64,000 nt of DNA, taken from assembly GCA_021234155.1 (NCBI GenBank), contig JAJEKV010000002.1, forward strand, positions 25,288,617 through 25,352,616. Reading direction: 5' to 3'. Below the pieces are notes generated by a model. That model saw nothing but the letters and a program-made list of their open reading frames with translations. It was not told the DNA's origin and ran no database searches. The stretch comes from Isoetes taiwanensis (lineage: Eukaryota; Streptophyta; Lycopodiopsida; Isoetales; Isoetaceae). The position numbers and the translations under genes were made by a program. Shown here piece by piece: positions 24,724 through 58,590 of this stretch (its first letter is position 1; each line of letters begins with the position of its first letter).

Positions 24724-27077
24724 ATGGCAGCTATGGGAGGCAGCAATCCTATGTTATTCTCCCGAACATCTCATCCCAGCTGTTTTTTTGTTTTGAAATC
24801 TCAAATTTGCTACACATGGACAAACGCAGGGCGAGGCACAGCTTCGAAATGGCTACGCAGTAAGTTACATTATGGAGAATCTTCTGCGTTGAGTTTAATA
24901 AATAAAAGCCAGAAAATGGATTTGGTCGAGTTGAGATTGGATCGGTGCAAAAGGCATACTAGAGTTAAAAAACGGAGGTGGGCTGGATGTACAGTTGCTC
25001 TTGTGGAGGATTTAGTGACAAGCAAGGATACTGGTACGTGTTTTGGGTAGTCTTCATCTCGAAACGAAAATAAATCTTTCTCCGTATTCCCTATTTTGCC
25101 AATTCTCATATATTTAAAACTATCCATGTGCAAATAGAGAATATATGGTGATGTTTTTTTATGACAATGGGACATTGGCCTCTTTACTCCAGCAGGTAGC
25201 GATTCCCCTGTTAGAAAATCTGCATTGTCCATACATGACACTGAGAATCTGAAGACAATATTGAGTTTAAGGAATAAAATGTAGGAGCTTGTTACTCAGG
25301 TACCCAGCATCACAAATATTACCCATGGCATACGGTTAATACACGCATTGCATAGGTGCTCCTATCTTTTGATCCTCATTGTGTTGTGGATCTCAAAGTC
25401 TTATTTTACGCTGCATTACATATTCAACCTTTGGTTTTGAATACATACTTTGGTTGAACTCTTAGTTTTGATGTTCCAAGGGCATGCATGAGAATAGCCT
25501 ATTCCTTTAGCTAAATAATTTAGAAAGATTATTTCTTAAGTTAGTTTCATTAATCCCTGATAACCCTTGTTGTTTTCACTGATCTTCAAATACCTTTTGC
25601 AAAGGAAGGATAATTGTACTGGTAATTGGAAGTGGTGGTAGAGAGCATGCTCTTTGTTATGCCCTGCAACGATCACCTTCTTGCGATGGGGTCTTTTGTG
25701 CACCTGGAAATGCAGGGATCATGGTCTCTGGCAATGCTACATGTATTGCTGACTTGAATATCAAGGATAGCTCTGCAATAGCGACGATTCGTAAAGAATG
25801 GGAAGTTGGGCTTGTGGTTGTTGGTCCCAAGTTCCTCTTGTTGCAGGAATTGTCGATGATCTTGTTGCGTAAGGTATTAGGCTTTTGGTCCATCTGCGGT
25901 GCTTTGCCGCTTTAGAGGGCTCAAAGTCTTTCATGAAGAGCTTGTCAGCGACAAATATGACATTCCAACAGCCAAGGTTTTATCTCGTCAACTCACTGTT
26001 GGTCTTAAATAACAACTCCATATGCTATTAACTTTAGGTGTGTTTTTTCAAGATGCCACTTTCGATAATGCAATGGATGCAAAAGCATACATAAAGGAAC
26101 AAGGAACACCCATTGTCATCAAGGCATGGTTTGGCAGCAGAAAGGGTGTTGTTATTGCAAATTCTGTGGATGAAGCTTTTGATGTCTTGTAGACTCGATG
26201 CTCGATTCGTTGACGAGAGAATTTGGATCAGCAGTGGGGTCAATTGTCATTGAAGAGTTTCTTGAAGGAGAAGAAGCATCCTTTTTGCCATCGTAGATGG
26301 GGAGAATGCCATTCCTTTGGCTTCACTCAAGATCATAAACGTGTTGGGGATGGCGATATTGGTCCGAATACGGGAGGAATGGGGAGCTTATTCTCCAGCT
26401 CCCATTGTAACCCCCAAATGGAGTCATTAGTGATGCGCTATTATCACTCCTACCGTGAAGGGTATGGCCCGAAGGAGGGGTGCAAATTTGTAGGTGTTTT
26501 GTATGCAGTTTGATGATTGATACAAAGAGTGGATTGCCTAAACTGTTGGAATACAATGTTCGCTTTTGAGATCCCCGAATGCCGTGTCCAATGCGCTTAG
26601 AATTGTTTATCTCAGTGTGTTCTATGTTGACATTTCACTTAAAGTTTTGTTAGTTTTATGGTCCGTGTTGATGATGCGCTTACAATCGGATTTGGGAAGA
26701 TTATTGTTGGTTGCCTGTAAGGGGCAGCTTTGGTGGTTCAAAGTAGAATGGGCTAGGGAAGTGGCTCTAGTTGTTGTAATGGCTAGTAAAGGATACCCTT
26801 GAAGTTACAAATCAGGTTCTATAATTAAGAACCTTGAAGAAGCGTGGTTACAGTTCCGCAAAGGAAGGTGTTCCATGTCGCGCCAAAGATTTGATTCACA
26901 TGGAAATCTTATTGCGGTAGGGGAAAGGTGCTTGGGGTGACAAAGATTAGAAGAAAACGTTTCCAGAAGCTCGAGTCGAGCCTACCAAGCACTTGAACAT
27001 ATTATGTGGCGGAAGGCTTTTATAGACATGATATAGGATGGAGGGCTATTGGGCCGAGGTGAACATCATAAACCGTG
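24724..27077 (+). CDS. Phosphoribosylamine-glycine ligase (GARS), copy 1, frame-broken in this assembly
   Basis: GARS makes glycinamide ribonucleotide from phosphoribosylamine, glycine and ATP, the second step of purine synthesis. In plants it is plastid-targeted, and the first exon (24,724-25,033) has a Ser/Lys/Arg-rich leader. Exon 2 is 25,196-25,280 and exon 3 starts at 25,609; both junctions keep phase. Family signatures are [62 protein letters not shown] and TKSGLPKLLEYN, with a last exon giving [10 protein letters not shown]. From about 25.8 kb the frame is lost repeatedly, and copy 2 breaks at different places. Sequencing error is therefore more likely than decay, because most defects are not shared. 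Confidence 0.85.
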
Positions 27078-27680
27078 GAGGTGTCACCTGTGCATTCTTA
27101 TGTAAAATGATCTAGGAGCCCTAGTCGACATCCGGAATAAGAGAAATGCGGTTGAAGTTAGCTTGACTTTGTTTACTTTCGCTCAATAGAAACCAAATAG
27201 GTAAAGAGAAATGTCTAGGAGGAACAACCCGGATGGTACAGCTTTGCACATGGACAAATCCTAGTTGCATTACTTCCTCGCTTGCCATTGTTCGCAATTT
27301 GCCTCATCATGGTTTGATATGATGTGTTGCTAATATAATTCTTTCCGGCAAAGAATCAGATAATAGATGCCAATGTCAATATTACAAATTGCAGGTCTCT
27401 ATGCCGCTGTAAACTTATCTTGCCATTTTAGCTTGGAGATTTGGTGCCCGCTTATATAACCTTACCCGTGTAAAAGTGAACTTGGAAGAAATAAAGAACC
27501 TTATCCAATGGAGTGGCATCCATGGTGCCCTCGCCAAGACTCCTGGTTCATCCATCAATAACTAATAGATGAACCAGGCCTCGATTCAAGACTAGGTTCA
27601 TCCATCAATAACTAATAGATGAACCAACTAATAAAATGTACCACAGTTCGGTTGGGAAGGAATCCGCTTCATCAAATCGC
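27078..27680. other. 3' intergenic stretch between GARS and AKR, copy 1, with a hairpin pair
   Basis: Two near-identical blocks (27,544-27,574 and 27,595-27,625) each have ggttcatc and gatgaacc as 8-bp inverted arms around a 15-nt loop. The stretch lies beyond the GARS stop and before the minisatellite. No other feature is seen. Confidence 0.6.
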
Positions 27681-28690
27681 TTCATAAATCGATGCGTGAT
27701 AATTGCATGCCCGAGAAAACTTTTACAAATCTCTTGTTCACTTTAAATGAAATTATCTCTACTACGCTTGGAAAAAAGTGTTAAAACATTTAGTACTTTC
27801 GCCAGCATCAACATTGGCTTCCCGCTATACTTTTGCTCCAAGACCTCATCCATGATATACAAATTGCCATAGAAGGAAAAAAATCATTTCATAAATCAGA
27901 TGGGAGTATTAATTGCATTTCTGGGAATGCTTTTACAAATCTCTTCTTGTGCACTTTAAACGAAATTATCTCTACTACATTGGATAAAAAAAGTGTTGAA
28001 ACATTCAGCACTTTTAGTTGCAATCGACAATGGCTTCTCTCGCTGTGCGCTTGCTCCAAGACCTCATCCATGATATACAAATTGCCATAGATGGAACAAA
28101 TCATTTCATAAATCGATGGAGGGAGTATTGATTGAATGCCTGAAACTTTTACAAATTTCTTGTTAACTTTAAACAAAATTATCTCTACCACATTGGATAA
28201 AAGTATTTAAGATTCAGCGCTTTCAGTTTAAATCAACAATGGCTTCTAGCTATACTCTTCCTCCAAGACCTCATCCATGAAATACAAATTGCCATAGAAG
28301 AAACAATCATTTCATAAATCGATGAGTATTAATTGCATGCCTCGGAATACTTTTAATCTTTTTGTTCAATTTAAACGAAATTATCTCTATTACATTGATA
28401 AAAGTGTTTAACATTCACTACTTTCAGTTGTAATCAACAATGCTTCTCCATATACTCTTTACTCCAAGACCTCATCCATGAAATACAAATTGCCGGGCCA
28501 TTCTTACATAAGTCGACAAATAATTGCATGCCCGGGAATACTTTAATCCTTTGTTCACTTGAAACGAAATTATCTCTATTACATTGATAAAAGTGTTACA
28601 TTCAGCACTTTCCAATCAACAATGGCTTTTCTCGCTATACTCTTCCTCCAAGACGCCATCCATGAAATACAAATTGCCATAAAAGGAACA
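27681..28690. repeat. Minisatellite, five units of about 210 bp, copy 1 (error-rich)
   Basis: Units share ttcataaatc, gaaattatctctacta and caagacctcatccatgatat. Many small differences from the cleaner array at 58,591-59,605 sit at CAG/CTG. The array abuts the 3' end of the aldo/keto reductase gene. Confidence 0.85.
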
Positions 28691-28723
28691 TGTTTACCAA
28701 GAATGAACATTGGTGGTATTATT

Positions 28724-30988
28724 TCAACGAGGAAGAGAGGGATAGCAATAACGCCGAGATTTTCTTCAACATGTGCAACATTACGCATGCTTTGCTAAGG
28801 CTTTCACAATGTTACGGTACGCATAAATTGCAAAGCCTTTGTGCATCCAGAAGGTGCTGGCGCCTTGACACTATGCGGCAGGCCCTTGCAAAGCTTTGGC
28901 TCAAAACAAAGATAAATAATAATTTCACATCGTGGATTGCACAAAGCAACTAAATAATCTGAAAATAATCAAGGCCTTGATCAGAAAAGGGTATGAAGTA
29001 TAGTCCAACATCATAGAATGCGTAAAAACAACCAACCATAAAGTCATACCCAAGATTAAAGATGCTGATGCTACCACCGATCCTGCAAGCTCCTTTGCAA
29101 AATCTAGCAAAGGTCATAGGCCTATTCTTTTCACAACCTCGTTGGCTTCACGTAAACCTCTTTGCAGTTTAAAATTGAAAGGAAGTTGTATAACCCTTTG
29201 AAATGGTGGTTCCCCTCCTACAAGCACACAAAGCAATTTAAAACATGCTCAAATATACCCAAATAAAAAGTCATCACATAACATCATCTTACTTTACCTC
29301 CGCTTTCCGAAAGGTACCTTTTGTACAAGTCTTTTCTAGGGAAAGATGCCCTTTAGATTGAGGTGGCACGCTGAAACCATTCCATGTGGTTGTACCATAT
29401 GTGCACGATCTTTATCTCTCCACAAGCTCCCCCGGTGCCCCAAAGGTATTCTGTATCCTCTTATAGAACTCCATCATTTGATAATTTCCATTGTTGTGTT
29501 TCGATTGTGCACATAGAAAATGTCAATTGTTCCACCAAGGTTCTTCCTACTCTTTTCAAGTCTGCATAATTTAAATAACTTGTATAAAAAAGTTGGCACT
29601 CCGAGTTGATCGCTAAACTATCGACTCAATACATTAGCAAGCAAATCTTTTCCTCCGACTGGCCCAAGAAGTGAAATCTAAAAATATATATATCATACAT
29701 ATACCATGTTCAATGAACCTCCCCAATTTCCTGTGATTAACTAGACTAGAATAACATCCTTCAAAAATAATAGTCATCTACATAAGATTTACGTGAAGGT
29801 GTTTTTGTAAGATGAGGTGAATGACCGAGAAAGCACAAAGAAATATTCATTTATGCAGTTATACAAGTCCTAGTACAAAATATAAAATTTTAATTAGTCA
29901 AACTAGCAGCTTTTGTAAAATTCAAGATGAATGAAGGCATGGGGCTTATTACAAATGTGGTCAAGTGTCAAGATACCATTTCATAGTTTGTGAATGCTAG
30001 AATGGACACATACCCCATCTTGATATAGGTTGAGACATAAATGACAAATCAAAGAACAAAATCAGCCCATGAGAATATTCCAGCTTGATATAATTTTCTT
30101 CGATCCAACTCCAGGATTTGTTGGGCTTCTAAGGCCAAAGGACAAGTAATTCTCCTTTTGGTACAAAACCAATTTATTTGATTTCTTACAATACCATGGG
30201 AAATGCTGACTAGTAATTGTGATCTAATCTATGGCAATTTCTCTTATCAGCATATTAAGGTAGTTTATTGCTCTATAAAAACACCCGTGGTCAAACCTAG
30301 AAACACAAAAGAAATTCAGGCCTGCTTTAAAGAGGAACTCACGAAGTCAAGAACGCTTTATACCAAGAGATAAAGCTTTCTTTATAGCACATTGATATCA
30401 GATGTCGCCTTCATCAGCCAGTCCTAGGTAAGTTCCTAAACCCAAAGAAGATACCATCAAGTTTCCCACATTTCCAATCCATCTTCATTTCCTCAAGTGC
30501 CCAGGAGCCGAGAAGCACGAAAAACAAAAACGAAAAAATAAGATACGTATAAAAGGAATTGAAGAATAATTTAGCACTAATAATGAACTTTTCACAAGGA
30601 TGCAAATCCATGCCGAAAGCATCTCACGTAATAATGCCTTGAAACGCTAAGCTAATATCCGTGGTTACAAAGGAGAGGGACTTTTAATTTACTTCAAGAA
30701 AACCTACAATATCCTGACATCATGAGAGGCCCCACAATTTGAAAAGGCAATCAGATCATTGCATAGCATAAATGAGTTTTTACAACATTGATGCTTTAAT
30801 TCAATCTTTTAGCCCGCTTTGGGGAATAGTAAAACAAAGGACAAGATTATAGATGAAACTGGCAAAATGAATTGCCAAGATAACAAGTTTACTCAAAGAA
30901 TCGCTGCAAAAGTTTGGGAATAGGAAAGAGTGCTCCTCTCATCGGGCGCGCCGAACGAGGTCCATTTTTAGTCTTAGCATCCGGCCAT
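28724..30988 (-). CDS. Aldo/keto reductase, copy 1, frame-broken in this assembly
   Basis: Same six-exon gene as 59,641-61,878, with the start ATG at 30,988 and the stop at 28,726-28,724. Most exons have small indels at CAG/CTG or C runs; for example, the segment before the stop reads HVEENLGVIAI instead of HVEENADVIAI. Such damage is absent from the right-hand copy. I treat this as an under-polished duplicate, not a proven pseudogene. Confidence 0.75.
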
Positions 30989-32245
30989 CTCGACAAGAAT
31001 CAGCCCTTTCTTTCCTTCAATTTTTTAGCTAAAATGTCAATGTGAGCTAAGTGTCACTTATTTCATAGCCAAGTGTGAAATTTCAGTTATGTATTGAGAG
31101 TTGATTGTTAAATCTCGTTTTGAAACACCCCAAAACCAAAGTGAGGGGGGTCCCTTTCAAACGGAAAAAGGGCTTAATTTATGGCATTCCCAACAAAACT
31201 AAGTTGGGTCGGCCGACAGGCATCTCTTCGCATTGATTAGGCAGCTCATGGAGTCGACAGTTAGTTCGTGGATTCGTTTGCTATAGCTTGTAGCTTGATT
31301 CGTAGCTAAGGGATCATTTCCGCGAAATGATTTTTCCTTTGTTCTTCGCCCTCTGCTCTCTCGTTTCTGCAAATCATTTATTTTCTCTTCATGGGCTGGA
31401 TTCTTGGAAGATGAAGTATTTACAAGAGGCCAAGGAGGTCGAGATAGTCGATTTTCTGCTTGAAATGTTGCATTTTCTGCAAAGTGTTGTCGGACCTTTA
31501 AAGCTTAAGGTCGAAGCTTAACAGTTTTGTTGCTTAAGGTTTCTAGTGTGTGTCTATTGCTTACCTCGCCAAGTTTGTTGGAGCCATTCCGCTTTGAAAC
31601 GATGCCACATGGCACGCTCGTTAAAGTTTCCATAAAAATCGAGACCCAACTTCCGGCTTTGTATACAAGAATGTCATTTTAGGTGACATTCATGGAAACC
31701 ATGTTGGCACATGAGAATGTCATCTTTAAGTGATATTTTTGTTTTTATCGAGGGAGGGTGCCCATAAAGTTCCCAATTAAGTTTAAAACTTTTATTATGA
31801 TGTGTTTTTTTTTTCTTTTTGAATCTCTTATTTTGAAATAACATTATGAAATTTCAAAGTTTAGCCTTCAATTGATACTAAGCACGCAGTCGCTTTGACA
31901 TATTGGAAGGTTGCTATAAAAGAATTCTGGGGCTTGGCTTATCAATAGACCATGCATTTAGCTCAATTTTTAATAGTTCTTAAGGTGGGCTATTAAAGGG
32001 CAAAAGTGATCTATCAAAGGGTAAAAGTGGGCTATTAATGGGCAAAAATGGGCCAAAAGCGGTGGATGAAAGGAGGGCATCCTCCCCTACATTAAGAATG
32101 TTGAGTAACCGAGAATGTTGGGTAATGTCTAGATGCAAAATCTACCAAACATTCTTTAAAAGAATCAACGCTTACGCATCAACAAACCATTATAGGAGGG
32201 AAGAATGTAAAGTGGAGTAAGCGTCTCACAATCTAGCTTTGGCCT
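30989..32245. other. Region upstream of aldo/keto reductase copy 1
   Basis: Likely promoter and 5' flank of the reductase. An imperfect short tandem repeat built on gggctattaa and gggcaaaa units lies at about 31,985-32,052. The open frame at 31,327-31,521 (+) has no family signal. Confidence 0.4.
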
Positions 32246-32624
32246 TAAGAAATTCATATGCCTCAGACATGGTCTAGTGCAGGGGATTTTAAACCGCCAC
32301 AATCACTGGTGTCACAAAATTCAAGTATGGCCAATATCGATCTAATAATGGGGACCTAAAATTCAGTGTCCCAAGCTCAGTGGCTCAACTATGACCAATC
32401 AATCCCGCGGATAGAGACCTTTAAGCCTGCCATATATACAATCTATCATATGGTAGAGACCTTAAACTTGATATAACCACATGCAAAGCCATTTCTAGCA
32501 TATGGTATTGCTGTTAGGTAGTGGATTGGTTTATGTAGAATGATGTAGATATTGTACTCATGATGTGATGGTATAATAAATTGGCGCCCTTCAAAGAAAA
32601 AAAAAACAAATAAGAAGTCTCATA
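32246..32624 (+). mobile_element. tRNA-like SINE (second family), copy 1
   Basis: Same element as 63,176-63,523, with an A-box-like catggtctagtg near its left end and an A-rich tail at about 32,599-32,606. Flanking repeats are taagaaattcatat (32,246-32,259) and taagaagtctcatat (from 32,611). Confidence 0.6.
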
Positions 32625-35600
32625 TTTATCTTATTGTTCTTAATACTCATTAACATGAGAAAGTTCTTATATTATCTATCATTATTCTGTTTTTGTGAAC
32701 ATTGTTTTTCTCTCTCAATAAAAGCAAGCTTAAATACAATGCTTGATTGCTAGTAAATATGTACAATCATGTTTCCTATATGTTTGATGAATATGGTTGC
32801 ATCCTTTATATCCCTTTAAAACTTAGTTGTATGAAAATGACTTGAACTAGATCTACGCCCGTATATTTATTCCTCATATTCTAATCTAATTCGTGAATTG
32901 TCATTTCTTCTGTGAGCGTATCTCAGGCTTGCATTTTAATGATATATCATTGACTTGAAGATGCGGCTTGACATAAGTTATGGCATGTTGCTACTGATAC
33001 ATTAAACAATTGTTTTGAGGGCAATGAAATAAAAATAATTTCTATTACTTCTTCAAAAAAAGAATTATATTGCACTTCCATCTTTAGAATCACAATTGAT
33101 GAACACAATTTTTTAATTTGATCCAAAGAAACATATACCACCAACATTCTTGGATCGGATTCTTGCTAGTAACTTCGTATATCCAAATTCAACAAATCAT
33201 CATCAAGAATACCATCGAAAATGATTAACATTCTATGTGTCAACTTCTCCATATGAACTAGAAATCAAGGAGTTCAACTACTTGGTAATCAAGGGTGCTC
33301 AAGAAATACTACTAGAATAGTGTTAAGAATTGGAGAAAGTGGATGAAGATACTAACACCACTAGCCAAATTTCTATCTTTTTTTCTCGATCTCACTTAAT
33401 AAAGCAAAAATCTTGTGTTTGAGTCACATCCTCAAGTAGCTGATTTGATAGAAAATAATATCATTGTTTATAACTAAATTTTTGTTAAAGAAAGATGAAT
33501 AGGTCAATTAAAGCTAGAAACTCAAATTACAAGATTAAACCTCTTATAGAAGTCACGCTGCCTCCAAGCACTCAAAAACGCTTGGAGTGTTTGATTTTTC
33601 CTGGTAAAAGCATGAAGGGTGTATGTAAATCATACTAAATTGAAGGGCTAATTTGGCGATTTTTGGGTGCATTTTAGGTGTACGACTAGATACTCGCTTT
33701 TGGCTCATTTTGTGGCAAATCTGCAATGATTGCAACAACATCCCATGACAACTTCCCGAATTCTTAGTGAATCAATAGAACCTCGCTTTAAAATGGATGT
33801 CCCTCTAACTCAAATCTCCCCTCCCTTTCCCCCCCTCCCCCAAACATCCCGGGAGGGCGGAACTCCACTAAAGTGGTGTGGTTAAAAATCACGTGTATTT
33901 TGACATTGGATCATATTATACCACAAAACAAATAAAAGCAACATGTTGGAAGGCGGTGGATTGCATTCTTGGCTATTTTACATTTTGTGAGCGGAACAAT
34001 CATGACACCAAGGATTGTTACCTCATAACAATTTAAATAAAATGAAACCTAGCACTTCCTTTGGCAAATCTTGGTAGTCGCTTAAAGTTGTATAAGAGTA
34101 AAGATATCCCTTCTCGTAAATACCATTGCACCATGTTCCCAACGCCATCCTAAATTTCACCACCATCGGTCCAAAATCACAATCTATATATGGGAGTGGC
34201 CGTAAATTATGTGTAACTCCAACTTCTCCATTAAATTGCAAAAGTCAAGGCTACATCGCTCCATTTTTGCAATTAATCATGGTTCCACTTCCTGTCATAA
34301 AAGTTCGACACCGGTGGGATCCTCATTAAAAGTTATTTCGATGATTACTTTATGGAGGCTATGTATTGCATCGATTTGGCCTTTCAATAAAATAATCCTC
34401 GTTTTTGGGAAAGGACCAAATTCAACCTTAAGGCCACTATTATATCCAAAATAAACTGAAAAAGTGAACAATGTCGGACCAGATTCAGTATCGTCGGTTG
34501 GGCAAGTAAATTGGATCCTCTTATAATAAGATATTGTATTGGTTAATTGGAAAGAACACCATCTTGTGCAATCCACCTTTATTACCCAAAATTAATTTGA
34601 GTAAATTGCCAACTTTAGATGATCAAGCTATTAACTATCTACAACAGTGAATTGCTTACATTTGCTCTTTTGCCATTTCCTATGATCAAATGAAGAGTTA
34701 ATTCACGAAAGTACATAATCAACTATGAACTTATTACAAGAACAAGCTATACTCACCGACTAGTCGTATCACCATTCAAAGAGAGTTAGCAATGGCTCGA
34801 TTAAAGCTACCTTCAAATCTAAAGACGGCTCCTTCATATGTTGATGTGGATTTAACTCATTATGGTATATGTTATGTTAACCGCCGCTTTTAACCCGATA
34901 AAGTTATAAGGCATTACGACGGTATTCTTACATTTAAAGAAAAAGACTCGACCCCCAAAAATCATATATTTTACAACAAAAAAATGGTTGGCATATGTAA
35001 TTAAGGGAACACTGTACCCCGTGGCTTCCATAGTGGTAGAGCAAATGCATAGGCAATTGAGAAGTATTAAAAGGCACAATGCTCAAGAATTAGCTTATGC
35101 TACACATCCGCATATAATGATTTCTTACTTCTACCGCTTTTACAGAGTACACAGAGTGGTTTAAAGGAAATGGAATATCATGAGTCAATTTAACGACATT
35201 TAGAGTGATACTCCAATTTTAAATCCTCAAATGGCAACCGACCTAGTTACAACTATGACTTCGCCATGTCGACAAACATACAAAGTTATACCAACATGTC
35301 TTGTTGACCATTAATGAGAAAGTGGACACCATATTAGTTATTCAACAAGACAGTAAACTCTTCAAGATACATTGCATTTGAAAATTCAGGCTTGTAATGA
35401 GCTCGACCAAAAAACTCCAAATGTCCGCACATGACCATGAAAGTCTTCAAAGTAAAAAATCCACGTCTTGGTTAATAGGCAAGAAGTTAAAAACTTCTTC
35501 CAAACAAAATTGGATACTTTGAAAACCAAAGGGAACAACAACTTCAAGTCTTCAAGAACCAACATCAAACATTGAAGGATCAATTGACACATGCACAAAC

Positions 35601-44260: not shown

Positions 44261-44469
44261 AGGTATGATGTTCACTTTCCTACATTCTCAAGTATACTTT
44301 TCTTTTGTTTTCTTTTAGATCTGTCTCAAATTGGTTAACCTGCCTTAATATTCAATGATTGGTACTTCAATCTAGGCATGTATATATTATAACATAAAGC
44401 ATTAAATGCCGCCTTATCAATTTGCCCCATTTAAACGCCCCTCTACCTTCAACTCAAAGCGTGAACGAA

Positions 44470-45689: not shown

Positions 45690-47540
45690 TCGCTCTTCTT
45701 CGATTGGCAAAGATGTCCCATTCCATGTCTTCCATAATACGTGGTTCCAAAGCACACAAGCAAAGATGTATAATCTTGGAGGCCTTGCCAACATACACCA
45801 ATATTTTGTTAAATTTCGCCAAAATCCATTTTCATGCGTTTAAAAAACGTTTTTTAAGATTTTTGAAGATTTTAAAATTTTTTCAAAAAAGGGTCTTAAA
45901 AACGTATTTTTATATAAAATAGGAATGTTAAAAAATCTTTTGGTCTCTTTAAAATCCTTAAAAATCCTTAAAAATCTTTAAAAATCCTTAGAATGTGATT
46001 TGTTTAATTTGAATATATGATATTCTTGAACTTATTTATCCGTATATATAAACTTCTTATATTTCTTAACCTCTATAATAATGTTTTTCCTAACTTTCTT
46101 AAGATTTGTATGGCAAAACATCTATGATATCTTTGTACTTGAACTTAATAGTTTCTAATAGCAAGATAAGCTCTGATTTACTTGTTGGTATGCATACGCC
46201 TTTATACCTTTGTAACAAAAAATGTGCATTTTAACAATAGCAAATATGTCCAATGGGGCTAAACCTTTTGTAAAAGAATGTGCAATTTTTTTATTTTTAT
46301 TTTTGGCCATACCAAATCATAAAAATCCTTTAAAAACGCGTGAGGATTTTTTATAGAGGTACTTTAAAAATAAAAAGAAGTTTTTAACAACATTGACATG
46401 TACAGGGCCTATGTTTGAGAATTCCTCAAATTTCTCTTTCACAATCCGAACCCATTTTCCACAATACGACTCTTACTCCACACAAAAATCCTTTTATTAA
46501 ACTTGCCATACGGCCCATGATTCTCGAGGAAAAACTTTCAAAAGGAAGGGTCTAGCAAAGATAGGCGTAATCACCGAAAGCAAAAATAGAGGAATGTTAA
46601 CCCGGATTTGGTCTTCAGAAGGGTTGACATTTCTTCAATTTTCGACCACCACTCAAGGTTACAAGCGTTCTTTCAAGATTAGTTTTGGATGCAATTTTGG
46701 ACAAGATATGGAACTCTTTCTTGAGCTGATTTGAGTCATGGAATCCATCCAGTTCTTGTAACACGCACATTTATAAACAACCCGGCACCAGTGGTGTGAC
46801 AATACCTTTTGCGTACATGAGTGTCTTTGTATCGACTATAATAGTCATCACCTTTGTCACTCTTCTTGGGTTTCCTCCATAAAAAGATATGGGACCCGCC
46901 AACAGATTACCACATACACATTTGGCAATCTTTTGCATCATGAAATTCTTTTTATACATTTAGTCTTGCTCCGAAGGCATGGCTACAAACCTTTGTAAAG
47001 CATTGTCTTCAAGCCAACAATAGTGTAATATTTTAGTATATTTCTCAGATCAGAGCTTTTCCAACATAGAATCTCCATTGTATACATTGTACATGCAAAG
47101 GCATGTCACCATGTGCCGTAAAAGTAAAGAACCATGGCAACAAAATTTTCTTGGGATCAAAAGGGCCTAACCTAAACCCTCGCCTAATCAAATAGGGGAC
47201 AACAAGCCCGACTAGTCTCTCAAAGTCGGCCCTCTTCATTCCCAGAAAATTGATGCCACATATCATCTTCAAAAATAAGGTAGACAATTCCATGCGTGGT
47301 TATCAATATTATCCATCAGGTTCTTTGTCTTGAGCAATCCAAAATCTTCTAGGTGGCCTTCTAACCCGCATGATCCAAATAACATCAAAGATGAGGCAAA
47401 AGATCCTCACGTGATCATATTTTCTTTGCAAGTCATCACCATCGACATAATAGATACATTGGGTCGTCAAGCTCGTTTAGAAGCGCAAACGTAACCTTTT
47501 TTGAATGCGAATTCGAAAGAGCACGTAGTCTCAGATGGCA
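45690..47540 (-). pseudogene. Harbinger transposase, copy 2, interrupted by a 600-bp insertion
   Basis: Counterpart of 15,426-16,645. Recognisable pieces include FERLVGLVVPYLIRRG near 47,220 and YGRHGMGH-like codons near 45,730. It shares the GARLNV frameshift of copy 1, carries many further small indels, and is split near its 3' end by the AT-rich insertion at 45,796-46,400. Confidence 0.75.
45796..46400. mobile_element. About 600-bp AT-rich insertion present only in copy 2, MITE-like
   Basis: Sequence left (cttgccaacat) and right (tgtttgagaattc) of the insertion is continuous in copy 1. The insert is very AT-rich and has inverted subterminal segments: about 45,821-45,870 (aaaatccattttcatgcg and onward) resembles the reverse complement of about 46,313-46,352 (containing cgcgtgaggatttttt). 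The short word caacat occurs at both edges and could be a target duplication. No protein is encoded. An artefact of noisy sequence is the alternative. Confidence 0.5.
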
Positions 47541-47779
47541 ATCATTCCGATAATCATCGGATGTTCGATGATAGAACGCGAAAATGGAACCCTATGCAAG
47601 AATACAAAGCAACTAAATATCCCACAAAGCTTACCTACCAAATAGAATGGGGAAGAAATATCCCATATTTTGAGGCCGATTCAAAATTGAGGGGAATTAT
47701 CCCACAAAAAAACTTGGCCTACCTAATGATTCAATGGAGTAGTTCTCCCGCTGGAAACCAAATTTTGAGGCCTAATTCC

Positions 47780-48125
47780 ACGCCGTTATTAGACCTCGAG
47801 AGACCTTTCTCCTCTCCCCTCAAGAATTTTGAGCTGCTTCGATCTTTTCCGCCATAACCGTTCTTCCCTTTTGCTTGCAAATGTAATTTCAACTTCACCA
47901 TCGATTTCTCCACGCATTTGCTCCATATTGGCTCGCAAACGCTTCATTTTCTGCCCTAAGGTGTGTTCGCTCCATCATCAAAAGGCCTTATCTTCTCTTC
48001 CGGGCCGATTCTTGCCGAAATTCCAAAAGCTCCTTCCGCATTGCCGCTAATGAAATCTATCACACCGATCCCTCAAGTCTCTCCCTTAGAATCATATTCC
48101 TTCTCACGGTTTTCATTTTTTGCCA
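47780..48125 (-). pseudogene. Coiled-coil ORF, copy 2
   Basis: Counterpart of 16,887-17,210, frame-broken by small indels. It lies between the transposase leader and the (GA)n tract, as in copy 1. Confidence 0.35.
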
Positions 48126-48162
48126 TGATACGATTTCACAAGGCACAAAAGAAACAGAGAGA

Positions 48163-48280
<118 letters not shown>

Positions 48281-48289
48281 GAGCATCCG

Positions 48290-50090
48290 CAAATGATAAG
48301 GCAAAGGATGTGGGAGACAGATGGGCACGCGGCGAGTATCCAAGTCCGGCCCGTGCAAAGAAATTCATCTAAACATTGCGTTAAAATGCTCACGGTAGAG
48401 CTATGTCTCAAAGGAATTCCGAAAGGATTGGCGATAAAATGGGTGATTCCTATATATAAGAGCGGATCTTTATTGGAAGTGAATAATTATAGGACAATTT
48501 TGGTTAGCAGCATATTTTCAAAACTCATTGCAACTATTTTAGAAAAGAAGATCGAAGTGCATGGGAAGAGACCAACCATAAAAAGAGCAAATCAATAAGT
48601 GCGGTTTTACTGGACTAATAGGTCGACTTTGGACCATTTGTTAGTGCTCAAAGCTATTTTTGACATGGTAAAAGGTAATTTTAAAAAACTGCTTATGTAG
48701 CTTTTGTTGATTTCAAAAAAGCTTTTGATAAGGTTCCATGAGCTCAACTGTGGGATCGCATGGACCAATTAAATGTCCCGAAGGACTTGCAAGATGCGGT
48801 AAGTCTTCTTTATGAGAAGATCTTGGTTCAGCTCTCATGGCCTCTCTCTTTGGAAAAACCAGATTATACGGAGAGCACAATCGGGGTTAAACAGGGCTGT
48901 CCTATGTCCCCCACATTATTCTTGCTTTATTGATAGACTAGAGGAAGTGTTTAGGAGAATTGTCCAAAGCGGTGTTGAAATCCATGGATATGTGCTTTCG
49001 CTTTTGATGTATGCCGGCGATGTTCCACTTTTTTCAATGCTCTAAGGAGCATATGATAAGACACTTGAATGGATTGGCGCAGATTTTGTGATGACAATCT
49101 TCCATGCAAGTTAACTTGGAAAAGACTAATACTATGGCCGGGCCGAGCTATTGAGCAAGCATCCTTCACATATTAGGGAAATATGGTAAGCCCATGTGAC
49201 TCTATAAATATTTAGGACTAATATTCCACGTAAATCATAGATAGAACACTTGTGTTAATCAGAGAATTGATGGCGGGCATAAGGCCCTCAGATGCTATGC
49301 ACTAGTATGTGCAGAAAGCATTCCCATGGTCCCCGCATCTTAAAATAAGACTTTTTAATTCACTAGTACAAAGTGTGGTTTTATATGGATGTGAAATTTG
49401 GGGACCAAGTTTGCCTCAAGGTCTTTGGGAAGATGTAGAGCAAGTCCTGAAGAAATTCTTGAGATTAGAGTTAGAGTAAAAGCCCAAACCCATATCCCAT
49501 GATGTTGTGCTAGAAAGTGGGACCATGCCATTAGAGGGTGAAGCCATCTTAAGGTGTATCGAGATATCTTCAAAATTGCTACAAATGGAACAATCAAGAG
49601 TTCCTCAAATGGCTATGCAATCTAGCAGGGACAAGGGATGGTTTAAGGATGTAGAAAACTGGTTTGCAAAATGGGATATTCAGCATAAGGAGGCAGTTTT
49701 GGTACAGGTAGATCTAAGGCAATGGGTATTTGAGAAAATTCAGAAGAAACTCTGGCTTCAGCCGAAAACCAAGATGATCCTTTACAAGCAAACAATGAAT
49801 CCTAATTTGGAGAAGGCAGGCTACCTAGGAGAGAATATTTCTATACAAAAAAGACATAATATCGCGAATCCATCTTAGTTCACACCATCCGAAGTGGGAA
49901 ATGGGAAGGTGGGGTCACGTGGGTGCCTAGAACAAAAAGATAAGCTGTGTATATGGAGAAGACAAAGCCGGTAAACGAGGAACATGCCTTTGTTATCTTG
50001 TGGTTGCCCGCGCAAGGTTACCAGAGATAAGTTTGGTATATAGGCCCAAAATCTCCAAACATTCTTCCCCCTAGAAGGGAGTATAAATTG
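48290..50090 (+). pseudogene. LINE ORF2 reverse transcriptase, copy 2
   Basis: Counterpart of 17,383-19,119. It has IPIYKSGSLLEVNNYRTI and the TGA after KAFDKVP. Stretches at about 48,700-48,920 and 49,580-49,860 are base-identical to copy 1, while neighbouring stretches are full of indels; YADD reads YAGD here. The frame shifts several times. Confidence 0.85.
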
Positions 50091-50181
50091 AGCTTATTTG
50101 ATAGAAACTAACTTTAGAGAGAGAGTTGTATTAAAAAAACCTAAACAACTTTTGGGAAGTTGTTGATAACATGAGGCACCC

Positions 50182-50183
<2 letters not shown>

Positions 50184-50228
<45 letters not shown>

Positions 50229-50242
50229 GGGAGAGAGAGAGG
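50184..50242. repeat. (AG)n microsatellite, copy 2
   Basis: Counterpart of 19,229-19,294, shorter and interrupted. Confidence 0.95.
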
Positions 50243-50316
50243 TAGAACCCTAGCATTTGAAAACCCTAATTGAACAAAGAGAGAGAGAGAGAGAACATTC
50301 AGAGAACCAACCCCCT

Positions 50317-50471
<155 letters not shown>

Positions 50472-50714
50472 CCTTTTTCTTGCAATGCTTCTCAAGTAGA
50501 AGTGCATATTTTGTATTTTTCAAGTATAGCAAAGCTAATAATTTAAATGCCCCTTTCGACAATGTTAGATGCAAAAGTGTGCACTGTGGATAGCGGCGTT
50601 CACATACAAAGAGTGAAATAATCCACCCTATTCCAAAGACCACCAAAAATAGTGCGTAAACATCTATGCGTAAAACCTCAACCCCGCGGAGCAAAAAAGA
50701 CAAAAAATCTTCAA

Positions 50715-51228
50715 CAATCCGCGATTTGATCCTCGAAAGTGTCGATTCTCTGCCTCTTGTGCAAGCAAAGGGGACGAGACTATTTGAGCATTGTTTCTTT
50801 ATGTGATCATCTCCAACCTGCTTGGTCTTGGTCAGATTTCTCTTTTTATGTGACATTGACATGTCGCCAGTGCTCCCGGCTATTTATCCGTATAGTTGGA
50901 ATAATTTGCGAGCCAAGCATTTCATTTAGCATCGATGGTTGTTGTGGTCCATCCGAAGCCAGGAGATTGTGTGTCTTTAGGGTTTGGATATTCCTCCCGC
51001 AGCTTGTCCTCTAGGACGCACAAGCTCGAATCGCTAAGGCCTACCATTGCTCTTTCGCTTTGCTCCCCGCCAAGCCGACGGTGTGTTGTCTTATGCATAG
51101 GCTGGTGGTTCTATTTAGTGGATCATGGTTATCCTCTCAGATTTTATTCCCTTTTGCAAGCATTTGTATCCGGCTTTTGGCTTGAGTTTCAACAAAGTTT
51201 GCCTTCCATAAAAAAAAAAGGAAAGCAA
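50715..51228 (+). mobile_element. L1-type LINE 3' fragment (zf-RVT), copy 2
   Basis: Counterpart of 19,844-20,343, frame-broken, with an A run at about 51,210-51,219. Confidence 0.65.
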
Positions 51229-52571
51229 GTTTTCGGGTTAAATATAGACTATCAAACTTTTACCCATTGAATCAAAAATCTTTCACCTAACATCATTGAG
51301 GTGAGGAGAGATGAAAGACATGTTTGATATCCACACTCTCTTAATATGCTCTCAAGAAATGCACATGTAGATTCCCTGGAATGCAAAGCTCTTTATGTTA
51401 GTCTCAGATAGACACTTACATGTATCCATATCCAAACATGCACACCGTAAACGCCGGGAAATAAAAAAGATCTTTATGCCAATATCCTGGATGTGGAAAA
51501 TAAATGCAGATGCTTAACTTCCACAAATTAATTTCATTCTACAACCGATATAAGCAATAGTATGAAGAAAGGATGCATTTATAAGGCAGATTTAAAACTT
51601 ATGGCTAGTGCCCAGATGATCCAAAATATGCGGGATCTTATGAAAGAAACAAATACATAAAGAAAAGAGAACGCCATAGATTTGGAAAATAACAAACATA
51701 GAATCTAGTTTTCACAATGTCTTGAAAATTGCCGATAACAGAAACAATAGAACATTAGACTAAGATGTGATAATTATAGCAACAAAGATGTCATGCTTAT
51801 CTAAGATGCTAAGCCGTATAGTCTAGAAATTCCTCATTAGAAGAAAAATGCAATGAAAGATTCCCTTTGGGCTAAAACATGATGGAATTACCTTTCTTTT
51901 TCATTCCAAAGAATATGAATTATGCTCTCATTGATTTTACAACCTCCTCCAAATTTGGAATATGTATACACAAAAAACGTAATCTCAAATAAATTACTTG
52001 TCCATGGCACCGACAGTACAATGCTACAAGAATAATATTCTTTGTCTTAAACGAACCTCGAATTATTCATACTAGTTAAAATAAAGACTATCAAACTTAC
52101 CCATTGAATCTGAAATCTTTCACGAACATCAATGAGGTGAGGGCAAGTGAAGAGTCTTGTTTGATATCCACACTCTTAATATGCCTTCGATAAATGCACA
52201 CGTAGATTCTTGAATGCAAAGCTCTTTATGTTAGTCCATGCATGCACACTTACATGTATCCACATCCAAACATGCACACCGAAAGGTCACTGGAATTAAA
52301 AAGATCATTATGCCAATGCAATGACATCCTCCCTTTGGGCTAAACGTGATGACAATTACCTTTCCTTTTGTTCCAACAATATGAATAATGCTCATTATGC
52401 TTAGTTGATTTACAACCTCCAATGTCAAATAAATTACTAGGCCCACGCAAGACCTATTGCACAATGCTATCGCAATAACGTTCTTTGTTTTTAAAACTCG
52501 CATTATTCATAATGTCTTTAAAATATAGACTATCAAGCTTACTTATTGAACTAAAATCTTTTACTTATAAC

Positions 52572-52586
52572 ATCAATGAGATGAGG
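52572..52586 (+). repeat. LINE target-site duplication, left, copy 2
   Basis: ATCAATGAGATGAGG, the same word as at 21,680. Confidence 0.88.
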
Positions 52587-53587
52587 ATACCCCTTTGTTG
52601 GTGGATAACCGTGGAAAATAATCTTCCACTTTGTGCCTCGGTTCATCCATTAACTCAACGGTCGGAGGTTAGCAGTGAATCTTGACAGCTTGGCGGCATG
52701 GTATGATTCTCGCCGCTTAGCGACATGGCAAATCTTTCAAACAAAATTCTCATTGTCTCGATGGGGATAGACCTATTTGGCAAAAGATTGCTAGTACTCG
52801 CCATTGGTTGCTCCGCAGGCTATTGAAGGGTGCATGTGGGTTTCTCAACGTAGTGTTCACGAAAGCATAGGCTTGTGAACTCTATGTATAGGCTGCTTGT
52901 CAATAGTGATATCCTTCCTAACATCCACTAGGTGGTCCCTTCAGCTTTCACCTCCCAATTGGAGACTTATGTGGACTTGGGCTTGGGATAAACTACTCCA
53001 TCCTAAGGTGGCGGTGCTTTGGTGGCAGATTCTTCACGATGCCCCTCGTGTGAACATGCTTGTCCACGATTTGATTCTCGAAAGTGTCGCGATCGCCTAA
53101 TCGGCGAAAGCAAAGGGACAAGACCATTGAGCATTGTTTCTTTTTATGTGTTCATCTCCATTTTGCTTGGTCTTGGCTTGCTTTCTCTTTTCATGTGACA
53201 TTGACAAGTCAGCAGTGCTTTACGGCTATTTATCCTGATACTTGGAATAAGTTATGAGCCAAGCATTTCATTTAGCATCGATGGTTGTTGTGGTCCATCC
53301 GGAAGCGTAAGACCGTATATCTTTCAGGGTTTGATATTTCTCCCAGCTTACCTCCGTGACGCTAATCAAGCTAGAATCACTAAGGCATACCATTGTTCTT
53401 CGCTTTTCTACCAAGCTTATCTTGATATTTGAGTCCTATTTGAGTGTGCAGGTCTTATGCATAGGTTGGTGGTTCTACCAATGGATCATAATTATCCTTC
53501 CAGACTTTATTTCCGGGCCTCTGCATTTGTATTTTAATTTTTGGCTTGGAGTTTCAATAAAGTTTGTCGCTCTTCAAAAAAATAAAA
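52587..53587 (+). mobile_element. 5'-truncated L1-type LINE insertion, copy 2
   Basis: Counterpart of 21,695-22,692 with the same flanking 15-bp repeats. Its ORF2 tail is broken by indels; WAWDKLLHPKVAVLWWQILH is still readable near 52,975. Confidence 0.85.
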
Positions 53588-53602
53588 ATCAATGAGATGA
53601 GG
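53588..53602 (+). repeat. LINE target-site duplication, right, copy 2
   Basis: ATCAATGAGATGAGG, directly after the A-rich tail. Confidence 0.88.
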
Positions 53603-54509
53603 GAGGTGAAGAGGCATGTTTGATATCCACACTCTTAATATGCTCTCAATAAATGCACATGTAGACCCCTAATGCAAAGCTCTTTATGTTAGTCCAGATA
53701 GACACTTACATATATCCATATCCAAATATGCACACAAATTGAAATAAAAAAGATCTTTATGCCAATGTATCCATTATGGGAAATGCGCCATGCTTAACTT
53801 CCACAATTGATATAAGCAACATTATGAAGAAAGGATGTATTTAACTCCAAAGATATCATGCATATCGAATGAACTCCTTTTACTTCAACGTATCCGATGC
53901 ACAAAATATATGTTGATTCTTTTTCGTGAACTCTCATTCGCCTTATGCATACACAAGACCATCGATGCCGACGAGAATTTTACTGTATTCGAGGTAAATG
54001 AAGATCTGAAGATAGGTGTTCATAAGAGAAGTTGCTTCGAAATTGGCAGCTTTCCACACGCTTATGCTTTTGATAACAAGAGAGGAAAGCTCAAAAAGCG
54101 GTTGGGATTTGCCATCAAATCCCCATAAGCCGTAACTCTTAGCTCATCGAATTACCTATTTTGAACCCATACGTGGAGTAAAGTTTGTTTACTACAACAA
54201 AGAAGATGACGATCATAGGGGATCTTGTTGAAGCTGCAAACTGGATTAAAGCCATACCTATACTAAACCCTAAAACTCGCTCATACCAAGAATAGATTGG
54301 CAATAGACATACTCATTGTTGCAGCTCTTTCTTTGAAAGTGGCGATGCCATACCAGTGTCAATCTGCTCCAGCAAGTATTCTTTGAACCATAGCCATCTT
54401 CCTGAAGCAACCGAAGTTCGAAACTAAATTTTCTAGAGAAGATGAGGAATACAACAAAGGGTCTTAGAAACCATACCTTGCAAGAATATTCCATGCTCAA
54501 ACGGACGTG

Positions 54510-54760
54510 TTGCATACAATATAATCTCAGACATCTATGGTTTGCTGATATCAATTTTTTAATTGCGCCTCTCGCTAAAATCCGCCATCCAACTTGGAGC
54601 CATGCTCGCGATATCGCCAGAAATGCAAAGGATACCGCTTTGGCCATCCAACTTGAGCCCTCAAGGCAATCAAATCTGTACTACGCTATCATGACCTCTT
54701 ATAACACGCAGACACTACCAACATTGCCAAGGAGCCCTCTCTAGTCTTACTCCAACAACC
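54510..54760 (+). pseudogene. Subtilase fragment, copy 2
   Basis: Counterpart of 23,629-23,868; the duplicated 59-bp segment is present but heavily altered. Confidence 0.55.
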
Positions 54761-54834
54761 GATTAGGTAAGCTAAAGCAAGACACACACTATATTTTTGT
54801 AATAGAAGATAGCGTAAAGTAAGTATGTGATGGC

Positions 54835-55030
54835 CCATCAGTTGGTGGTCTAGTGGTAAGGCCTTGGATTGGGGTAATCCCCACCATGGTGGTCTAGTGG
54901 TAAATACCTTGATTGAGATAATCCCCACCATGGTGGTCTAGTGGTAAGCCCTTTGATTGGGGTAATCCCCACCAAGGTTCAAAACCCACCTGCCACCATC
55001 GGGGAGACGGGTGGGTGTCATTTTTTTACT
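54835..55030 (+). mobile_element. tRNA-derived SINE with triplicated A-box head, copy 2
   Basis: Counterpart of 23,941-24,150. Three tggtctagtgg words are again present, with the B box at about 54,977 (gttcaaaac). A further deleted head follows near 55,280. Confidence 0.6.
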
Positions 55031-55617
55031 AAATAAAAGGGAGATAAAGCCTACCCTTTGTACTAAATAAAAAGGGAGATAAAGCCTAAAACCCTAACGA
55101 AACGCCCAAAAACGTAAGGTTTAATTTAGAGTCACCTGCACCCATGCAACCTCCAAGCTTTGGAGCCGTAATGAAAGAAGCCACTTAGAGTCTACCCACC
55201 CATGCAACTGTGCACATGAGCCAAACTCTAGTGCCGAGTCACTGATTTTGTTGTTCCAAAATAGGGATAACCCCCCACCATGGTGGTCTAGTTTGTTCAA
55301 AAACCCACTGGCCAGCCATCGGGTGGGAGACGTGGGTGGGTGCCATTTTCTACTAAATAAAAAGGGAGATAAAGCCTAAAAACCCTTTGTACTAAATAAA
55401 AGGGAGATAAAGCCTAAAACCCTAACTAAACGCCCAAACAGAGAAGTGAATTTAGAGTCGCCTGCACTCCATGAACTTTGGAGCCAGCCAGCCAGTTTTT
55501 TGTTTTTTCAAAAATAGGGAGGTATTTCAAACCTCCAAATTGTGGGTTTTGATTTCCGAGAGTCAAGTTGAAATCGAAGTTAGGCTAATCGTAATTTCGC
55601 GTTCCCTTAGGACAACC

Positions 55618-57989
55618 ATGGCAGCTATGGGAGGCAAAGAATCCTATGTTATTCTCCCGAACATCTCATCCCATTTGTTTTTTGTTTTGAAATCTCAAAT
55701 TTGCTACACATGGACAAACGCGAGGCTTGGCACGGGACTTAAAATGGCTATCGCAAGTGAAGTTACATTATGGAGAATCTTCTCGTTGAGTTTAATAAAT
55801 AAAAGCCAAAAAATGGATTTGGTCGAAGTTGAGATTGGATCGGTGCAAAAGGCATACTAGAGTTAAAAAACTGAGGTGGGCTGGATGTACGCTTGCTCTT
55901 GTGGAGGATTTAGTGACAAGCAAGGATACCGGTATGTGTTTTGGGTAGTCTTCATCTCGAAACGGAAAATAAATCTTTTCTCCGTGAAGATTCCCTATTT
56001 TGCCAATTCTCATATATTTAAAACTATCCATGTGCAAATAGAGAATATATGGTGATGTTTTTTTATGACAATGGGACATTGGCCTCTTTACTCCAGCAGG
56101 TAGCGATTCCCCTGTTAGAAAATCTGCATTGTCCATACATGACAATCGAGAATCTGGAAGACAATATTGAGTTTAAGGAATAAAATGTAGGAGCTTGTTA
56201 CTGTGTACCCAAAGATCACAAATATTACCCATGGCATACCTAAGTTAATACACGCATTGCATAGGTGCTCCTATCTTTTGATCCTCATTGTGTTGTGGAT
56301 CTCAAAGTCTTATTTTACAGATTACATATTCAACCTTTGGTTTTGAATACATACTTTGGTTGAACTCTTAGTTTTGATGTTCCAAGGGCATGCATGAGAA
56401 TAGCCTATTCCTTTAGCTAAATAATTTAGAAAGATTATTTCTTAAGTTAGTTTCATTAATCCCCCGATAACCCTTTGTTGTTTTCAACCGATCTTCAAAT
56501 ACCTTTTGCAAAGGAAGGATAATTGTACCGGTAATTGGAAGTGGTGGTAGAGAGCATGCTCTTTGTTATGCCCCGCAACGATCACCTTCTTGCGATGGGG
56601 TCTTTTGTGCACCCGAAATGCGGGGATCATGGTCTCGCAATGCTACATGTATTGCTGACTTGAATATCAAGGATAGCTCGCAATAGCAAAGATTCTCAGA
56701 AAGAATGGGAAGTTGGGCTTGTGGTTGTTGGTCCCGGTTCCTCTTGTTGCGTGAATTGTCGATGATCTTGTTGCGTAAGGTATTCCGCTTTTGGTCCATC
56801 TACAAATGGAATGCCCGCCGCTTTAGAGGGCTCAAAGTCTTTCATGAAGAGCTTGTCAGCGACAAATATGACATTCAAAATGTCCAGGTTTTATCCGTCA
56901 ACTCACCGCTGGTCTTAAATAACAACTCCATATGCTATTAACTTTAGGTGTGTTTTTTCAAGATGCCACTTTCGATAATGCAATGGATGCAAAAGCATAC
57001 ATAAAGGAACAAGGAACACCCATTGTCATCAAGGCGCGATGGTTTGGCAACAGAAAGGGTGTTGTTATTGCAAATTCTGCGGGATGAAGCTTTTGATGTT
57101 TGTAGACTCGATGCTCGATTGACGAGAATTTGGATCAGCCAGGTGGGTCAATTGTCATTGAAGAGTTTCTTGAAGGAGAAGAAGCATCCTTTTTGCCATC
57201 GTAGATGGGGAGAATGCCATTCCTTTGGCTTCACTCAAGATCATAAACGTGTTGGGGATGGCGACTTGGTCCCTAATCACCTGAGGAATGGGAGCTTATT
57301 CTCCAAAGTCCCATTGTAACCCCTATCAAATGGAGTCATTAGTGATGCGCTCTATTATCACTCCCTCTTGTGAAGGGCATGGCGAAGGAGGGGTGCAAAT
57401 TTGTAGGTGTTTTGTATGCGTTTGATGATTGATACAAAGAGTGGATTGCCTAAACCTGTTGGAATACAATGTTCGATTTGGAGATCCCGAATGCCGTGTC
57501 CGCGGGCAGTTAGAATTGTTTATCTCGTGTGTTTCTATGTTGACATTTCACTTAAAGTTTTGTTAGTTTTATGGTCCGTGTTTGATGATGCGCTTACAAT
57601 GGATTTGGGAAGATTATTGTTGGCTGCCCTGTAAGGGGCAGCTGCGAGGTTCAAAGTAGAATGGGCTAGGAAGTGGCTCTAGTTGTTGTAATGGCTAGTA
57701 AAGGATACCACGGAAGCTACAAATCAGGTTCTATAATTAAGAACCTTGAAGAAGCGAGTTCTGATTCCGGCGTGAAGGTGTTCCATCTTTGGCCTGACAT
57801 TTGATTCACATGGAAATCTTATTGCAAAAGAGGGGAAGGGTGCTTGGGGTGACAAAGATTAGGAAGAAACGCGTTTGAAGCTCGAGTCGAGCCTACCAAG
57901 CACTTGAACATATTATGTGGCCAGAAGGCTTTTATAGACATGATATAGGATGGAGGGCTATTGGCCGAGGTGAACATCATAAACCGTGA
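55618..57989 (+). CDS. Phosphoribosylamine-glycine ligase (GARS), copy 2, frame-broken in this assembly
   Basis: Counterpart of 24,724-27,077, start ATG at 55,618. The end is clearer here: [20 protein letters not shown] followed by RGEHHKP and a TGA at 57,987-57,989. Conserved pieces include [43 protein letters not shown] and the [11 protein letters not shown] region. Indels are at different places from those in copy 1, so reading the two copies together suggests an intact original. Same role: GAR synthesis in the plastid. Confidence 0.82.
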
Positions 57990-58590
57990 GGTGTCACCCA
58001 GGCATTCTTATGTAAAATGATCTAGGAGCCCTAGTCGGACATCTGGAATAAGAGAAATGCGGTTGAAGTTAGCTTGGACTGTTTACTTCGTTCAATAGAA
58101 ACCAAATAGGTAAAGAGAAATGTCTAGGAGGAACAACCAGATGGTACAGCTTTGCACATGGACAAATCCTAGTTGCATTACTCTCGCTTGCCATTGTCGG
58201 GTAATTTGCCTCATCATGGTTTGATATGATGTGTTGCTAATATAATTCTTTACGGCGATAGAATCGTATAATAGATGCCAATGCTGAATATTACAAATTG
58301 CAGGTCTCTATGCCAGTGCAACTTATCTTGCCATTTTAGCTTGGAGATTTGGTGCCTGTTTATATAACCTACCTGTGTAAAAGTGAACTTGGAAGAAATA
58401 AAGAACCTTATCCAATGGAGTGGCATCCATGGTGCCCTCAGTTCAAGACTCGGTTCATCCATCAATAACTAATAGATGAACCAGGCCCTCAGTTCAAGAC
58501 TAGGTTCATCCATCAATAACTAATAGATGAACCAACTAATAAAATGTACCGTCGTGCCTGGGTTGGGAAGGAATCTGCTTCATCAAATCG
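57990..58590. other. Intergenic stretch between GARS and AKR, copy 2, with a hairpin pair
   Basis: Two tandem 51-bp units (58,434-58,484 and 58,485-58,535) each contain an inverted repeat, ggttcatc ... gatgaacc, with a loop of 15 nt (58,452-58,482 and 58,503-58,533). No gene is seen. Confidence 0.65.

Follow-up and report, generated by a model that had tools for sequence, protein, structure and literature searches.

About 32 kb in the middle of the 64-kb window analysed here (the whole stretch C1018:25,288,617-25,352,616, in a 1.66-Gb genome) is most likely a raw, or at least one-strand and uncorrected, Oxford Nanopore (ONT) read of DNA methylated at CG and CHG sites, which would have been used to fill a gap between two clean contigs. 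We put the probability of this reading at roughly 85%. The block runs from one copy of a 30-kb tandem duplication into the other. Taking the clean copy as the reference (copy 1 up to position 25,760 and copy 2 from 58,300; 28,488 bases in five aligned stretches, leaving out sites a few bases from the ends of the stretches), we found that the other, "dirty" copy differs at 2,416 positions, and that CAG or CTG is miscalled in it at 561 of 742 sites. We regard the block as a technical artefact of a known kind, because the errors sit where plants methylate cytosine; each ingredient of the explanation is already known, and no new biology is needed.

The tandem duplication and the edges of the block

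Self-comparison of the window revealed direct repeats at approximately 11.67-33.08 kb and 41.87-64.00 kb. They comprise three pairs of BLAST matches between copy 1 and copy 2 (11672-15531/41869-45794, 15526-19337/46388-50280 and 19438-33084/50317-64000), the last of which reaches 41863/72792 once 40 kb of downstream sequence is added. The duplication is a 30-kb tandem, and its second copy extends beyond the end of the window (Table 1). Sequence that is free of methylation contexts and homopolymers shows 252 differences between the copies in 11,462 bases (176 indels and 76 mismatches), a background of about 2%, and because only 76 of these are mismatches, divergence by substitution outside methylation contexts and homopolymers is at most about 0.7%. 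Two AG microsatellites have nearly equal lengths in the two copies–56.5 units at both 17244-17356 and 48166-48278, and 76.5 units at 19437-19589 compared to 76 units at 50317-50468–which fits a very recent duplication.

Table 1. Features of the window (positions count from its first base).
Feature	Position	Strand	Evidence	Remark
Tandem duplication, copy 1	11672..41863	+	BLAST	clean up to ~25.78 kb, then dirty
Tandem duplication, copy 2	41869..64000, on to 72,792 in window numbering	+	BLAST	dirty up to ~57.88 kb, then clean
Junction, unit end to unit start	41850..41885	+	sequences of both unit ends and junction	in dirty block; ~5 extra bases
Dirty block, probably a raw nanopore read in clean assembly	25780..57880	window +	comparison with paralogue L028, error rates, one-orientation spectrum	
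Doubly dirty zone	25780..26970 (counterpart ~56.69-57.88 kb)	+		no clean copy within window
Clean left sequence	1..25780	.		ends within copy 1, inside presumed PurD-like gene
Clean right sequence	57880..64000	.		begins within copy 2, continues beyond window
Insert, 594 bp, dirty copy 2 only	45794..46388	+		missing from copy 1 at 15,531
Myb/SANT ORF	13141-13611	+	Pfam PF13837 2.8e-8	
DDE_Tnp_4 ORF	15429-16145	-	Pfam PF13359 8.7e-19	
LINE-like reverse transcriptase and zf-RVT ORFs	17224..22569	+	Pfam PF00078 9.3e-9, 6.8e-19; PF13966 1.1e-9	
Aldo-keto reductase (AKR) gene, exon-like ORFs, clean copy	59644..61400	-	PF00248 7.6e-9 on 60203-60523; open ORFs	

To locate the edges of the block we used a third sequence, the paralogue L028, which is 3.5 Mb away and covers both edges. 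L028 agrees with the clean copy on both flanks, so it marks which copy is wrong. At 24660-25779, copy 1 keeps 29 of the 36 CAG/CTG sites of the paralogue and copy 2 keeps 6; at 26970-27513 (copy 1 numbering) copy 1 keeps 2 of 15 and copy 2 keeps 11. Differences from L028 that are private to copy 1 number one in 24,900-25,799 (at 25,783) and become numerous past about 25,879, which places the left edge between 25,774 and 25,879. The last cluster of differences private to copy 2 lies at 57,872-57,880, followed up to 58,420 by four isolated columns, because of which the right edge, at about 57,880, could lie as far along as 58,260. We observed these columns at 58,089 and 58,252-58,259, and they may be real differences or residual errors. 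An edge at 58.27 kb, drawn from CAG/CTG sites only, was dropped since all private columns together place it near 57.88 kb. The original prediction of one contiguous dirty block of about 32 kb, occupying copy 1 after its left edge and copy 2 before its right edge, is borne out by both the private differences and the kept sites, as is its left edge at 25.8 kb; its right edge of 58.2 kb has to move 0.3 kb earlier, to about 57.9 kb.

The density of CAG plus CTG is also lower in the block: it is 10.9 per kb in 25.8-58.25 kb, whereas the first 25.7 kb of the window have 27.9 per kb. A low density does not suffice to identify dirty sequence, since 10.0 per kb was also measured in a stretch of contig C1044 that looks clean (bases 50,000-60,000 of a 70-kb piece); the evidence is the paired comparison of the copies.

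In the coordinates of the duplicated unit, about 1.2 kb separates the end of the clean left sequence from the start of the clean right one, leaving a zone that is dirty in both copies (25,780-26,969). Here copy 1 keeps 15 and copy 2 keeps 9 of the 47 CAG/CTG sites of the paralogue. Both copies are wrong at 30 of the 47 sites, and at 8 of these 30 they show the same error. Genuine divergence from the paralogue probably accounts for some of the 8, because the two copies share a departure from it at 6 of the 36 sites in the left zone as well. The remaining sites that are wrong in both differ between the copies, as expected of two noisy passes. The sites that survive are concordant between copies (Fisher P = 0.0025), which fits methylation or a plain fault of the base caller alike, because the k-mers are identical in both copies.

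The assembly contains a direct repeat with a junction from unit end to unit start, but the junction occurs only within the dirty sequence. It is therefore possible that the duplication is false: the filler read could be chimeric or derive from an extrachromosomal circle, with the locus present once and interrupted by a gap of about 1.2 kb. This alternative, which is compatible with a raw-read origin of the block, would account for the closeness of the clean ends and for the 5 or so unmatched bases at the junction. We consider it unlikely, though worth serious weight. A random chimera of two molecules from one 30-kb locus in a genome of this size would be improbable, ordinary reads would have closed a gap so short, and a MITE-like insert is present in copy 2 but missing from copy 1. 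Nor does an 11-base sequence that we take to be the ONT adapter tail occur with one mismatch or fewer on either strand of the 104 kb searched; allowing two mismatches gave 10 and 6 matches on the two strands compared to about 13 expected on each, and one of these matches lies at 25,740, close to the left edge. Since the junction links the end of one unit with the start of the next, and since copy 2 has the 594-bp insert, we conclude that the duplication is probably real in the plant.

Outcomes of the errors suggest a single uncorrected read

The commonest change at CTG is to CCG (61 of 349 CTG sites). CAG has more varied outcomes: among 393 sites it became CG at 46, CA at 25, CGT at 23, CAA at 22, and CGC, CGG or CAAAG at 17 each. 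The hexamer GCAGCA turned into GCAAAGA in 6 of 16 cases and was unchanged in 2. The conversions quoted in the original prediction (CTG to CCG, CAG to CGT or AAAG-containing forms, GCAGCA to GCAAAGA) are thus real. Length is altered at 290 of the 561 failing CAG/CTG sites.

The outcomes at CTG are unlike the reverse complement of those at CAG (cosine 0.42-0.48; chi-square P = 1e-15 and 1e-9), and for either triplet the two halves of the block give closely similar spectra (cosine 0.91 for CAG and 0.91 for CTG). The same orientation of error leads in all eight 4-kb bins, with ratios between 27 to 2 and 20 to 10 (the weakest, at 38-42 kb); the outcome classes were picked after inspection of the pooled data, so the bins test the constancy of the orientation and not its existence. 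Homopolymers are also poorly called, with runs of five A right in 22 of 43 cases and runs of five G in none of 6. The block combines percent-level indels, homopolymer errors and sharp edges (with the four isolated private columns beyond the right one), and is most likely one raw nanopore read. A read from one strand is favoured because a mixed-strand consensus would be both symmetric and cleaner.

For the same reason we think it improbable that the block is an unpolished consensus contig of a nanopore assembly, left dirty when short-read polishing sent the reads of both copies to whichever was already the cleaner. Such a process would explain why, outside the 1.2-kb zone, every position of the unit is clean in one copy and dirty in the other, but reads from two strands should give a symmetric spectrum and an error far below 2% outside methylation contexts, neither of which was observed, and it does not explain why both copies are dirty in the zone itself (approximately 25.78-26.97 and 56.69-57.88 kb).

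Sequence context of the errors and the role of methylation

Errors are concentrated around CG and CHG triplets: of the 2,416 positions that differ, 1,869 are at most 3 bases away from one, a zone that makes up 9,837 of the 28,488 bases compared. CCG is wrong at 50 of 100 sites and CGG at 71 of 108, whereas AT-only triplets away from CG/CHG are wrong at 183 of 3,850. To control for composition, we compared sites from which any other CG/CHG is more than 6 bases away. Isolated CAG is wrong at 153 of 211 sites and isolated CTG at 155 of 202. The triplets of the same composition are nearly all intact, with errors at 8/118 AGC, 10/140 GCA, 1/80 GAC, 9/119 GCT, 4/140 TGC and 0/77 GTC sites, which gives a pooled contrast of 308/413 for CAG/CTG against 32/674. 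Isolated CCG (28/50) and CGG (28/46), together 56/96, likewise stand apart from GCC (4/69) and GGC (5/80). Isolated triplets containing CG are wrong in 33-54% of cases (TCG 32/94, ACG 35/83, CGA 46/89, CGT 26/48, CGC 12/36, GCG 20/41). The affected set is therefore CG plus CHG, the contexts of 5-methylcytosine (5mC) in plants. The clustering of differences at CAG/CTG that was originally predicted is confirmed, but the restriction to CAG/CTG does not hold because CCG, CGG and plain CG fail too.

Across 19,534 clean bases, the per-base error is 38% within CAG/CTG and 20%, 8%, 4.5% and 3% at distances of 1, 2, 3 and 4 bases from the nearest CG/CHG, falling to background about 4 bases away. Some errors have another origin: CTT, CCT, TCT and CTC far from CG/CHG are wrong in 15-20% of cases, for which CG/CHG methylation gives no account. 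These are probably raw-read errors in pyrimidine runs, with which any errors due to CHH methylation, a further possibility, would coincide. All non-methyl triplets together are wrong at 816 of 12,651 sites.

Given a nanopore read, methylation very probably drives the errors. In the scenario that we favour, two accurate contigs would stop within a recent 30-kb tandem duplication which accurate reads failed to bridge, and a raw ONT read that did bridge it would have been placed, uncorrected, as a 32.1-kb gap filler. The read would come from native plant DNA carrying 5mC at CG and CHG, and a base caller untrained on 5mC in these contexts would misread the k-mers concerned, turning CTG into CCG and CAG into CG, CA, CGT, CGC or CAAAG. 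The halo of error, about 3 bases wide, would be expected if the pore senses several bases at once. Nanopore base-calling error with 5mC as its likely driver had been put forward in the original prediction, and the failure of CG, CCG and CGG with sparing of the matched triplets supports it.

A context-specific fault of the caller without methylation, in which CAG/CTG k-mers fail in any DNA, had been named there as the rival. In its favour, failure is nearly uniform along the block. It extends into exons, as had been pointed out for the AKR gene: CAG/CTG sites fail at 28 of 34 in the exon-like AKR ORFs and 5 of 6 in the PurD-like exon, compared to 434 of 571 in the rest, and transposon ORFs behave similarly (37/46 in those of PIF/Harbinger type, 57/85 in LINE-like ones). 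Clustering of CAG/CTG failures beyond that due to k-mers is weak, with 22 of 2,000 permutations reaching the observed value; with CG added, 0 of 1,000 permutations match the value of one of the five distance bins, and none of the other four is clearly exceptional (95, 532, 433 and 55 of 1,000). But a plain fault does not account for the failure of CG, CCG and CGG while GAC, GTC, AGC, GCA, GCT, TGC, GCC and GGC are spared, and few genomes could usefully be read with a caller that lost three-quarters of CAG/CTG even where the DNA is unmethylated. We judge it improbable, slightly more so than the unpolished consensus.

Plant genes are usually low in CHG methylation. Because the exons fail like the rest, an explanation by methylation requires that these copies of the AKR and PurD-like genes are CHG-methylated (silenced), and the block nearly throughout. 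Three patches of the block (36600-38100, 38970-39860 and 49600-49900) have fewer differences and more surviving CAG/CTG. They could possibly be less methylated stretches, the statistical support being weak. We did not adopt the error pattern as a map of methylation patches, since the clustering amounts to 22 in 2,000 permutations and one bin in five.

Biological mutation of one copy, by methylation-driven decay or a process like RIP, would also place differences at methylation contexts, but we give it practically no credence: the outcomes of deamination (CTG to TTG or CTA, CAG to CAA or TAG) account for 41 of the 561 failing sites, compared to 61 for CTG to CCG alone and 290 with altered length, so that C to T or G to A transitions do not dominate, and the block runs from one copy into the other with its edges inside the copies and not at their ends.

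A precedent exists in the Dcm methylation of native bacterial DNA read by nanopore. Dcm places 5mC at the inner C of its site, in a CWG core, and this core is the motif that fails most in the block. Default ONT models fail at the Dcm sites CCAGG and CCTGG, which made up about 70% of consensus errors with the callers then current, according to the Dcm count of Wick et al. (2019, PMC6591954). In both cases untrained 5mC leads to systematic errors at a methylation motif; the differences are that the set in the block is CG plus CHG and that the block has the look of a single uncorrected read, whereas the Dcm count was made on consensus sequence. Ferguson et al. (2022, PMC9749173) suggested methylation differences, in plants among others, as a likely cause of the lower accuracy of generic ONT models. 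Their study resembles ours in that native plant DNA shows a loss of accuracy ascribed to methylation as the likely cause, but CHG, CTG and CAG occur 0 times in its main text, which thus contains no error table of this kind. Among the titles listed by our literature searches for plant base-calling errors at CHG, PMC9749173 alone concerns plant base-calling accuracy, and none concerns CHG errors. TGS-GapCloser, as described in PMC7476103, closes gaps with raw long reads and the inserted raw segments need error correction. The use of raw long reads as filler is what we propose for the block; the tool differs in that it includes a correction step, and our proposal of gap-filling implies no particular tool.

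Consequences, and genes and elements in the duplication

The genes of the block are unreliable as printed. In the dirty copy, the exon-like AKR ORFs, 1,096 bases in all, have lost 44 bases and show insertions at 39 points, and with these indels and 2,416 of 28,488 positions differing, any estimate of copy divergence, gene count or selection test that spans the duplication would be misleading. The signature of the block is loss of CAG/CTG together with an excess of CCG and CGC over CGG and GCG. Used preferably together with a paralogue, this signature could help to find raw-read patches in assemblies of other plants; as stand-alone detectors we rejected both CAG/CTG density and a 3-mer score, since on the three contigs that we examined some sequence that looks clean also scores as dirty. 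We suggest tentatively, as a possibility that may well fail, that raw-read patches in published plant assemblies are accidental methylation records of single molecules, and that here a young 30-kb duplication, including AKR and PurD-like exons, is CHG-methylated almost throughout and was silenced soon after it arose. If so, surviving and miscalled CG/CHG sites could be read as methylation from a FASTA file alone, given a clean paralogue.

Our Pfam scan covered 20 ORFs, some of which gave only matches below the curated cut-offs. We take the Myb/SANT and DDE_Tnp_4 ORFs to be remnants of a PIF/Harbinger-type element. The limits of the AKR exons were drawn by eye from open ORFs, one of which (60884-61183) had no Pfam match. 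The segment at 24660-27513 has its second copy, L028, at approximately 21.84 Mb on C1018, with about 93% identity. We presume it to be a PurD-like (GAR synthetase) gene from its sequence motifs, and the ORFs adjoining it to be retroelement-like.

The 594-bp insert consists for the most part (from 45,837 onwards) of a member of a high-copy MITE-like family, of which 39 other genomic copies at 82-87% identity were found among 40 candidates scored; inverted matches lie close to its ends. The family was uninformative as a further arbiter of which bases are wrong, because only 2 CAG/CTG sites are conserved in at least 8 of 9 aligned copies (of the 39 found). On the left flank, positions 1-5012 and 10100-10807 have relatives with 88-95% identity on contigs C1032 and C1044, which stop ahead of the duplication; matches longer than 500 bases to the 70-kb pieces of these contigs are confined to the first 5 kb and to 10.1-10.8 kb of the window.
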